Origin: Mycoplasmataceae bacterium
GTDB taxonomy: Bacteria; Bacillota_I; Bacilli_A; Mycoplasmatales; Mycoplasmoidaceae
Direction of reading: 5' to 3'
Length of the DNA stretch: 52,334 bases
NCBI GenBank assembly: GCA_031258945.1
Contig: JAIRME010000004.1
Span: forward strand, 1 to 52,334
Shown: one piece after another, positions 34,324 to 52,150 of the stretch
Layout: each line of letters begins with the position of its first letter
How positions within the stretch are numbered: position 1 is the stretch's first letter
Position numbers and translations under genes: made by a program
Notes under the pieces: model-generated
Seen by the model: only the letters and a program-made list of their open reading frames with translations
What the model was told of the DNA's origin: nothing
Database searches by the model: none

Positions 34324-35236
34324 GATAAGCAAAGAATGAGTACATCCAAAATGATATCAAAAAGTTGTTAGACACATCTTCGTTGCTCTTCTACCAACCA
34401 TTATTTTATTCGCATTACAGCATTGATTGTGATTTATTGCTTGTACTATAGTTAAATCTTATCCTGATAATATTTTGTTAAAACCATGAACTCCACTAGA
34501 CGAGTTTCATGTCACTGCTGCTAATTCATGATTTGTAATTTTTTATGGTTTAAGTTTTGCGTGATGATTAATAATTCCAATCATTATTTATAATGTTTAT
34601 GGAAAAAAACTATATTATCGCTACATATGAACATTAACTATTATGTATCTTGTAGGATTCGTTATTTTTTTAGTTATTCCCACTTCTTCTTCAGAACTAT
34701 ATGCTAATGATAAAGCTTCAATAACTGGAAATGATTTTTTTTCCAGATTTATTAAAGATAATATGCGTAGTCATAACTCAGGCGTTTGTGCTATTCCTTC
34801 TTTCCATGTAATTGGAACCTATTCAATTTGATTAGTACAACGTTCATCTTTGAGTAAAAAATATGAAATAAAAATTGATAGGAAAGGTAATATCATTTTT
34901 TTTACGATAAGTAGTTTTTTTACACTAATGGTGAGTTTGTCAATATTTATGATTCACCAACACTATTTTGTAGATTTCCCAACAGCTGTAGTGGTTTGTG
35001 AAATAGTTTATTGAATTGTAACCAAACTTGAAAAAAGACCTAACCCTATGCAAAAACTGTTTACTAATTTTAATGTTGGTTTGCTGTTTGAACAAAATCA
35101 AAATGTTAGTTGGGGGGGGACTTGATCTAACAAAATACAAAAAGCAAAATACTATAAATTGTGATATGTTTTAATAATAATTCTATTTTTGCTTATATGT
35201 ATTGGATTAATTTATAGTTTCAGTATAGGACTATAA
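34322..35236 (+). CDS. PAP2-type membrane phosphatase/phosphotransferase with a G8 tract
   Basis: The 304-aa polytopic protein has about six membrane segments. The PAP2 motifs are visible as IPSFHVIGTY (PSFH at 159-162, in place of PSGH) and HQHYFVDFPTA with the second His and the Asp (about 211-220); the first KX6RP motif is not clear. The family dephosphorylates lipid phosphates or transfers phospho-groups in the membrane. Codons 264-266 lie in a run of eight G (35112-35119); slipping by one base would replace the last 38 residues, including the final helix, with a short tail. Many TGAs encode Trp. It sits among glycosyltransferases, so a glycolipid or polyprenyl-phosphate role is likely. 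Confidence 0.75.
35112..35119 (+). repeat. G8 homopolymer in the PAP2 gene
   Basis: Eight consecutive G in an AT-rich coding sequence. The present length keeps the frame open to the TAA at 35234-35236. Confidence 0.85.
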
Positions 35237-35276: not shown

Positions 35277-35468
35277 GAAGTAGGTTTGTACATAATATTG
35301 ACGTTTTTTTCAAGACTCTGCTCGAAAATTAGCTCATTCTTTAAGAGTTACTACGAATATATTCTAGTGTTATTTTTATTTTTTCTAACATAAACTATTT
35401 GCTCTGTTATTTATTAGAATGTACTTCCTTCATTTTATTAATAAATTATTCCGTCAACTTCTTTCACC
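35277..35468 (-). pseudogene. Decayed duplicate of the ppa 3' end and the start of the 95-aa gene
   Basis: About 190 nt align to 36270-36448 with many point changes and small indels. Shared stretches include CATAATATTGACGTTTTTT, AAAATTAGCTCATTCTT and TACGAATATATTCT. In the copy the 95-aa frame is broken within 17 codons and the ppa tail has a TAA at the place of a Tyr codon. The order (end of ppa, then start of the small gene) is preserved, so the two loci arose by a tandem duplication of about 1 kb. Homology stops at a run of eight C. Confidence 0.8.
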
Positions 35469-35474
35469 CCCCCC
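35467..35474 (+). repeat. C8 homopolymer at the end of the decayed duplication
   Basis: Eight C in an intergenic position exactly where similarity to ppa ends. Confidence 0.8.
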
Positions 35475-49850: not shown

Positions 49851-49956
49851 GCACACTCTATAACATCGTTTTATCTCCTCAATAATTCACTTTACTTAAA
49901 GAATTTTCTTTGAAACCAGCAAATTAAATTGCGAATATAATTTATGAAATATTTAC

Positions 49957-49983
49957 AAAAAGTTGAATAAACCTATGACTTAA
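49957..49983 (+). repeat. Short repeat flanking the lipoprotein pair, copy A
   Basis: The 27 nt share 23 identical positions with 52151-52177, with AAAAGTTGAATAAA and CTATG exact. It lies on the 3' side of the lipoprotein pair. Confidence 0.5.
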
Positions 49984-50112
49984 ATTATTCTCGGTAAATA
50001 GTTACTTTCCAAATAAACATCGTACTTAACACCGCGTCTTAAAAATTACAATTTTGGTTCGTTTATTCATTACGTTCTGTCATAAATACAAAATCATTGT
50101 TTGAACAATCAT

Positions 50113-51054
50113 CTAACTTTTAGGGTCAGGAGAAATTGGTTCAATCGATAAATTACTTAAATAATAAGAGGCAAAACTTATTTCATCACCCCACGAGTAG
50201 TCAGCACACAAGTAATAGAGCAAATATGATGGTACAGTTAATTCTATAGTTTTATCAAAAGGTCCAATAACATGTATGTTTATAGATACATCACTTGTTT
50301 TTACAGCATCGGTAACAGAACATCCAATTTCATTGCCATCGTAATACATAAATACATCTCTTAATCTTGTCCATGCTCAATCATAACTATTGCATACATT
50401 TAGATGGGCAAATCCTAATTCTTTTTGCGTATCTAAAGACAACGCTCCGTTAAAAGTGTCATTTTCCTGAAAACTGAAAACTAGTGGGAAATTGTCCACT
50501 TTGAGAGTTAGTGATCCTATATTCCAATCTGGAAGAACGATATCCTGATCTTTAAAAAAATCTAAATCATTAAGAACAGTAAGGGGGAAAGCAGGATTAA
50601 CATTAATTTTCAAATTTAGTGACCATGTTATTAAATCAGACGTAAAAGATGAATCGTCCTCTGCTGACATATTTTTAATTTTTACATCTTTAGCTAATTT
50701 AAATTGACTTTTATAAACATCAATAGATAAGAGTGATTGTGATGCTGCAATAGGATAGTATTGATCTATCTTATTTTCAAGAAGTGCGAAAGGTAAACTA
50801 AAAATATCCAAAGTTTTTTGTTTATCGCTTAAATTATTCATTCATAATTCTAACGCTTGTTTGGGAGTAGTACCGTAGTACTCTGATGGGTTGTTAGGAA
50901 TGTAAGGATTAATGTTGTCATAAATTTGAGTCGATAAACTTATTACATATTTAGGTTTGTTACTACATGATGTAAGTAATGTCGGAACAGCAATTGCGAG
51001 CGAAGACAACGATGTTATCCCCAATATTAGTGTTTTTTTAAATTTTATTTTCAT
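50113..51054 (-). CDS. Lipoprotein of unknown function
   Basis: The 313-aa protein has a lipoprotein signal peptide: a basic start (MKIKFKK), a hydrophobic core and the lipobox LLTSC with Cys30, followed by Ser-Asn. The mature part is acidic and rich in Asp, Ser and Leu with many aromatic residues, and contains WSLNLKINV and GSLTLKVDNF strand-like segments. Two TGAs encode Trp. Family not recognised. It follows the phase-variable lipoprotein by 43 nt. Lgt (16231-17292) would attach its lipid. Confidence 0.85.
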
Positions 51055-51097: not shown

Positions 51098-52081
51098 TTA
51101 AAAATAATTCATCTCTACTCAAATTTGATGCGGGGCATAAACTAAATCAGCTCCGGGAGCTATTTGTTGATCAACCTCGTAGAGAATAGGGGCTTTTTCA
51201 TCATCATAATTAAAATTAATGTATCCATACCAGTTAAGAAGACTAGAATTTACACTATGATTGTTATATCATGCATCAAATGTATCCCACGTCGCACTTG
51301 GAGATATTTTAAAACGAAGATCGTAAGTATCTTTGTTAGAGTTTGGTAGAATACAAACAGCGATAAATTTATTCGTTCATTCTGAGAAAGAGGCACTATT
51401 CGTTATAGCAATTCCATAAACATTTGACATTCCGCTTACATATTCCACACAATCAGTTCAACCAATGTCTTCTGATGGTGAACTTTTTTGTTTTACAGCA
51501 TAACCTAATTTTGCAGTTTGACTAGAAACCCCAGTCAATGTAGTTCAATTTTGTTGATAGGTTGATATATTTTTAGACTTATCTATAGTAATATAAGGGT
51601 GGTACCCAGCATCTTCAAAACCTAAAAGATTTACACTCCCCAAACCAGTGAATTTAATAATTCCAGGAATAGTACTAGAATTATTCGCAGTTGCTCCAAT
51701 TTTAAATGATTCTAAATTTGATAAGTCAGTCTTGTTACTAATATTCCAAGAAAGAGCTCATACATTTTTTTCTGTAGAATCTTGATTTAATGCAAATCCT
51801 TCTGGTGGGTTCGTTAAAAAATTCATATTAACATCCTGAGAATGTACATTTGGATTGGTGCAAGAGTACGATAACTTCAATGATCCTATTGAGTTCGCAA
51901 ATACATCTATTGAATATGAAGTGAATATTTTTCACTCTCCATATTCGTCTTCATATTTTAAAGCAATTTTATATTGATTACCAGTAGTAGCGCATGCCGT
52001 CGATATAAAAGGTATCGCAATCATTGGTGCAAACAAAAATCCCCCCCCCAAACAAATTTTGATTATTTTGTAACCCTTCAT
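51098..52081 (-). CDS. Phase-variable lipoprotein with G9 tract in its signal peptide
   Basis: The 327-aa product begins MKGYKIIKICLGGGFLFAPM, with the lipobox ISTAC (Cys30). Codons 11-14 are the run of nine G (minus strand; 52041-52049). The present length keeps the frame open to TAA at 51098; runs of eight or ten G give early stops (within about 35 codons). The mature part is rich in Ser, Asn, Thr and Trp, and several TGAs encode Trp. It is followed by a second lipoprotein. AGGGAGA about 7 nt before the ATG is the ribosome binding site. The family is not recognised; surface exposure is expected. Confidence 0.85.
52041..52049 (+). repeat. C9/G9 homopolymer in the lipoprotein signal peptide
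   Basis: Nine C on the plus strand, G on the coding strand. A change of one base closes the frame. Confidence 0.88.
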
Positions 52082-52110
52082 ATACTATCTCCCTATGTCC
52101 TAATAAACAC

Positions 52111-52144
52111 ATTATATTACGGTTTTATTCTTTTTGGGGGGGGG
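52111..52144 (-). promoter_or_regulatory. Promoter of the lipoprotein gene with C9 tract at the -35 position
   Basis: TATAAT at 52111-52116 (minus strand) is followed by a leader of about 25 nt with AGGGAGA. A run of nine C on the same strand (52136-52144) starts 19 nt upstream of the -10, where the -35 would lie. Length changes would alter the -35/-10 geometry. Confidence 0.6.
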
Positions 52145-52150
52145 AAAATC

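Follow-up and report, generated by a model that had tools for sequence, protein, structure and literature searches.

We consider it likely that the surface lipoprotein gene found near one end of the window (the whole 52,334-nt stretch of DNA analysed here) is a phase-variable contingency gene, switched through a G9 tract in its coding sequence and probably adjusted through a C9 tract in its promoter region, and that the other genes of this genome carrying two tracts rely on leader attenuators. Both nine-base tracts have exactly the sequence that had been claimed for them (C9 and G9 respectively when read on the forward strand; Table 1).

The window corresponds to contig 41 of an 835-kb metagenome-assembled genome (MAG; 46 contigs) from an uncultured, mycoplasma-like member of the Mycoplasmatales. 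Relatives from the same genus are other 'Mycoplasmataceae bacterium' MAGs, for example Cc175_bin15 and Pcl387_bin181, which we take from their isolate codes to be of termite-gut origin. The G/C tracts are not a product of chance, as the original prediction had argued: base composition predicts 0.003 runs of at least nine G or C in the window, which contains two, and 0.05 in the entire 835 kb, which contains 36 distinct ones. Dozens more tracts occur in the genome and their placement is consistent. Three classes are found (coding, promoter and leader), and sixteen of the G tracts fall within a repeated leader element of ~125 nt. Tract lengths given here are those of the MAG assemblies, with one genome per species. 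Homopolymer lengths are prone to error and several leader copies are located at contig ends, but an origin of the tracts in sequencing or assembly artefacts is extremely improbable given their consistent functional places and strands at 36 sites here and in several other, independent MAGs; exact lengths are uncertain, the presence of the tracts is not. Other tracts were observed in the course of this census. The window includes two extra G8/C8 tracts (35112-35119, forward strand, and 35467-35474), the first of which lies within an ORF of 327 aa. A G8 tract (C15:3934-3941, L004) falls in codon 58 of a gene for an ABC-transporter ATPase, the frame of which closes after 69 aa; this may be the OFF allele of a switchable transporter. 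Another G9 tract (C30:14490-14498, L011:2422-2495) extends across the 5' end of a gene for tRNA-Trp(CCA), and its slippage could alter the 5' leader of this tRNA.

The window lipoprotein gene (which starts with MKGYKIIKICLGGGFLFAPMIAIPFISTAC on the coding strand) matches no family in Pfam or NCBIfam. It has no relative among the 40 genomes searched, 24 of which belong to its own genus, and its G9 tract is therefore not comparable across species. An AlphaFold model of the protein was not usable (mean pLDDT 31) and was set aside. When the length of the G9 tract is changed in silico, the full-length protein is kept with G6, G9 and G12; with G7, G8, G10 and G11 the ORF shrinks to 33, 40, 34 and 41 aa respectively, so that one base more or fewer leads to an early stop, as anticipated. 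Some characters of the phase-variable class with coding tracts are thus present: the repeat is close to the 5' end of the CDS, its unit is not a multiple of three and the product is cut short when a single unit is gained or lost.

Table 1. Position of the window lipoprotein genes, tracts and associated elements
Feature	Position	Strand	Remarks
Surface lipoprotein gene, 327 aa	51098..52081	-	Translation table 4, TGA = Trp
G9 tract, codons 11-14, signal-peptide region, CDS nt 33-41	52041..52049	-	In frame as assembled
Lipobox-like ISTAC, Cys = residue 30	51992..52006	-	Translation, read by eye
Shine-Dalgarno-like AGGGAG, 7 nt 5' of ATG	52089..52094	-	Sequence
-10 element TATAAT (perfect)	52111..52116	-	Predicted transcription start near 52104
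C9 tract, ends 19 nt upstream of TATAAT, about -40 to -32	52136..52144	-	Start assumed 6 nt after -10
Perfect 13-bp inverted repeat TTTG9A / TC9AAA	arms 52040-52052, 52133-52145	.	Both tracts and their flanks
Second lipoprotein gene, 313 aa, without tract	50113..51054	-	43 nt downstream of 327-aa gene
Dispersed ~90-bp intergenic repeat, partial copy directly upstream of C9	52152..52193	-	Degenerate copy
Dispersed ~90-bp intergenic repeat, second copy (84%), just past 313-aa gene	49921..50005	-	

In five lipoproteins of the assembly, including the window gene, a G9 tract occupies the same N-terminal position. Two of the five (the window gene and C25:1502) are in frame; the frame is lost in the remaining three (C44:635, C24:4370 and C35:58136), each of which G8 would restore. 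This mixture of ON and OFF alleles among sister lipoproteins is expected of a slipping tract, although at the window gene itself only the in-frame allele was seen. By analogy with these sister genes, ON/OFF switching of the window gene by its G9 is well supported: slipped-strand mispairing would set the 327-aa lipoprotein ON with G6, G9 or G12 and OFF with any other length. The original prediction had proposed control by both a 'switch' and a 'dial'. The switch is supported by the frame logic and by the four sisters (one in frame, three out of frame), and the dial is plausible, which leaves the proposal as a whole half supported.

Tracts of C8 or longer precede TATAAT in 19 distinct promoters, that of the window included, against none for poly-G (G8), so that poly-C genuinely characterises promoters here. 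In most of these promoters the tract lies 4-13 nt from the -10 element, within the -35/-10 spacer. The window C9 lies beyond the spacer, outside the arrangement described for promoters of the fetA, porA and vlp type, and a change in its length would leave the usual spacing unaltered because of its distance from the -10. Its description as a '-35 site' tract is fair as to position, though no -35 consensus was found there and a scan for consensus promoters passed it over. As the C9 belongs by sequence to the genome-wide class of promoter poly-C tracts, a role as a transcription dial is plausible, and the tract would then tune both the 327-aa gene and the gene that follows. Less probable than this joint action, while deserving serious attention, is a scheme where the coding G9 alone matters and the C9 is a leftover, or neutral, outside the promoter core. 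The distance of the C9 from the -10 compared with that of most sister tracts speaks for such a scheme, as does the degenerate intergenic repeat adjoining it; against it, two other promoters of this genome have their C tract 20 nt from TATAAT (C14:14984 and C35:25930), and the presence before TATAAT of poly-C but never poly-G argues for function in general.

Promoter tracts are also found alone. Another species of the genus, G002, carries about 27 promoters composed of C8-10, GGTGTA and TATAAT (e.g. C12:1992-2014 and C14:25774-25793) and has no match to the leader model described below. Two poly-C/TATAAT promoters, C39:13055-13063 and C24:31198-31205, have near-identical flanks and different genes downstream, one of which encodes an NAD-synthetase-like enzyme (motif identified by eye). 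Promoter tracts are consequently not limited to surface proteins.

The 327-aa and 313-aa lipoprotein genes are probably co-transcribed, in which case the C9 could affect both and the G9 only the first. They form a block bracketed by two copies of the dispersed ~90-bp repeat, both in the same orientation; the contig end lies farther upstream of the 327-aa gene, on the same strand. Other copies of this repeat (C44:25177-25267, C30:16282-16371 and C15:5125-5214) are close to further C tracts. The two tracts and their flanks also constitute an inverted repeat, perfect over 13 bp, and in an RNA reading through this region the fold that pairs the tracts reaches about -41 kcal/mol. They might accordingly act as a pair, either through an RNA hairpin hiding the ribosome-binding site or through a DNA cruciform or inversion of the promoter segment. 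We regard this as very unlikely: the C9 lies upstream of the predicted transcription start and is absent from the normal mRNA, one arm is in the CDS so that inversion would take away the start codon, and complementary homopolymers pair trivially.

The third class of tract belongs to the leader element. Its members share a conserved order over ~125 nt: TATAAT, 6-7 nt, ATG, ~13 nt, G8-11, a hairpin, a second stem, an intrinsic terminator, a Shine-Dalgarno sequence and the gene. In the hairpin of this G type, the G tract is paired with a conserved pyrimidine run. Several species exhibit (GA)n in place of the G tract at the same leader position, and both units, of 1 nt (G) and 2 nt (GA), shift the reading frame. 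The genes located behind the leaders encode lipoproteins or single-span membrane proteins. About 20 such surface-protein genes are present in this genome (e.g. behind the leaders at C24:13150-13274, C36:217-341 and C37:14332-14457, and 17 more; L024-L043), and up to ~45 in other species of the genus. An RNA model of the leader has 20 matches in this genome, 49 in G040, 15 in G024 and 13 in G021, fewer in three further species (G048, G019 and G006) and none in the other genera searched. The 71 downstream proteins compared fall into 25 sequence clusters, so that the leader precedes genes unrelated to one another.

The RNA structure is conserved. In G-type leaders, 95.5% of cells are paired, 14 of the 34 pairs are changed on both sides and the covariation score is reached by no shuffle. 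RNAalifold gave no pair on the alignment of GA-type leaders, and covariation is thus shown for the G type only. Folding z-scores range from -3.8 to -8.2. Rfam searches identified only tmRNA, tRNA and SRP RNA and no match to the leader elements. The idea that the element is a small regulatory RNA, with poly-G as its seed, was considered and dropped, since a surface-protein gene lies behind each copy. The tract as a Shine-Dalgarno sequence for the NTG located just 3' was likewise dropped because this NTG is not conserved in the G024 and G040 copies. Separately, the leader-carrying genomes contain many copies of an intergenic 13-mer, GGTGAATAGTTAC (47 places in G040, 16 in G021, 8 in this genome, G000, and four more species), with almost no matches to the reversed-pattern control. 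A mobile element may end in this sequence.

The reading frames of the leaders show a regularity: of the 80 copies, 73 have a single frame that stays open past the tract as far as the terminator loop or beyond, with the other two stopping earlier, compared with 42 in shuffles. The number of repeats therefore sets whether the leader ORF stops before the terminator or runs into it, as in the pil1 leader of Streptococcus gallolyticus. A null model in which each species consensus was mutated at random to the observed divergence was also applied. In the three G-type sets, one open frame was observed in 15 of 15 copies (8.6 expected, P = 0.0002), 8 of 8 (4.6 expected, P = 0.01) and 25 of 28 (15.6 expected, P = 0.0001), these P values being too small since copies were taken as independent and the structural constraint was ignored; in the GA sets, copies are too similar to tell. 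The tests are supportive, not final. As assembled, 20 of 73 tracts are ON and 53 OFF, a proportion near one in three. In 29 leader copies a closed frame stops at most 15 nt from the terminator, and in 19 of 27 GA-type leaders a second frame stops beside it. As this last position corresponds to ON in pil1, the leader may act as a three-level switch.

Starting from the observed positions, frames, conservation and RNA covariation of the leaders, a mechanism can be proposed by analogy with pil1, from which we infer slippage in cells, termination, translation of the leader and ribosome-mediated antitermination. In the open frame, ribosomes starting at the leader ATG would reach the terminator and keep it from forming, leaving the gene ON. 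In the other two frames, an early stop would let the terminator form and transcription would end before the gene (OFF). In Mycoplasma pneumoniae, ribosomes are known to couple with RNA polymerase (PMC7858274). The tract might instead act through RNA structure alone, its length altering the long hairpin or polymerase pausing, and through these termination, independently of leader-peptide translation. The purine tract does pair with the conserved pyrimidine run in the G type, and G and GA could both pair. This possibility is nevertheless unlikely: the hairpin and the terminator do not overlap, so that no mutually exclusive fold is evident, and the position of the start codon and the one-open-frame pattern are retained despite the different tract unit.

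In nine other genes of this genome, a C tract in the promoter is followed 29-47 nt downstream by a G tract in the leader. The dual control of the window gene, which had been presented as notable, is consequently not exceptional within its own genome, although the second tract of these nine genes is in the leader and not in the protein. The window gene itself associates a promoter tract and a coding tract in the absence of a leader: its upstream region has no match to the leader model, nor the pil1-type arrangement of leader ORF and terminator.

Coding tracts and promoter tracts are known kinds of phase-variable elements. Two-tract control of one gene also has a precedent, as meningococcal porA carries a coding poly-A tract in addition. 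In Neisseria fetA (PMC5320596) and porA (PMC3899988), transcription is set by how long a tract of C or G is close to the -10. The window gene differs by a C9 located upstream of the spacer, a coding tract composed of G within a lipoprotein signal peptide, and a different phylum. In mollicutes, the variable tract of Mycoplasma hyorhinis vlp genes is a poly-A located in the promoter; unlike the genes of the present genome, these are not known to have an attenuator leader or a coding tract. The Vlp are surface lipoproteins switched by a promoter tract, as cited in PMC3899988. The surface lipoprotein family vlhA of Mycoplasma gallisepticum carries a variable GAA repeat upstream of the promoter (PMC6258824). 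The position of the window C9 is closer to that of the vlhA repeat than to the spacer tracts of fetA and porA, while vlhA differs by its trinucleotide repeat and is not known to carry a coding tract or leader ORF. In Bifidobacterium breve, a coding G9-G12 tract switches a pilus and G tracts in promoter spacers are mentioned (PMC9187656); this switch concerns pilus operons of Actinobacteria without attenuator leader.

The leader family has a single counterpart in the literature searched, where phase variation by leader-peptide attenuation was found only for the pili of S. gallolyticus. An out-of-frame change in the repeats of the pil1 leader peptide lets ribosomes reach the terminator and increases transcription (Danne et al. 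2014, PMC3894217); the demonstration there used variants of the repeat, mutants of the start codon and of the terminator, and chloramphenicol. The pil1/pil3 leaders and those of this family are alike in having a repeat in a leader ORF, a premature intrinsic terminator and a surface structure encoded downstream. However, pil1/pil3 carry 5-nt GCAGA repeats, in place of G or GA tracts, and are limited to two pilus loci, whereas the family has 15 to about 45 copies per genome, placed before unrelated surface genes. The start codon in the family lies 6-7 nt after the -10 and an extra hairpin contains the tract. Usually a single frame is ON, against two in pil1/pil3, and in many cases the promoter carries a further tract. 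The novelty of the family with respect to pil1 resides in its many copies per genome, its interchangeable repeat units and its combination with promoter tracts. As far as the literature searched tells, it is the first such case in mollicutes.

On balance, the evidence leans towards a mycoplasma genus in which a phase-variable attenuator has become a reusable cassette: tens of leaders in each genome, placed before unrelated surface genes, each subject to its own independent one-in-three lottery through a hypermutable poly-G or GA tract that is exchanged between species, and many associated with a promoter tract, would generate a combinatorial surface repertoire by attenuation and not by frameshift of the proteins. 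For the window gene, where promoter and coding tracts are combined, the balance between switch and dial could be readable within the same genome from metagenomic reads, without culture. If the cassette interpretation is correct, the tens of natural leader variants would constitute a library on how stop position governs termination. Attenuator phase variation would then be a general design, and an uncultured mycoplasma genus would diversify its surface mainly by leader-peptide attenuation, with two types of repeat.
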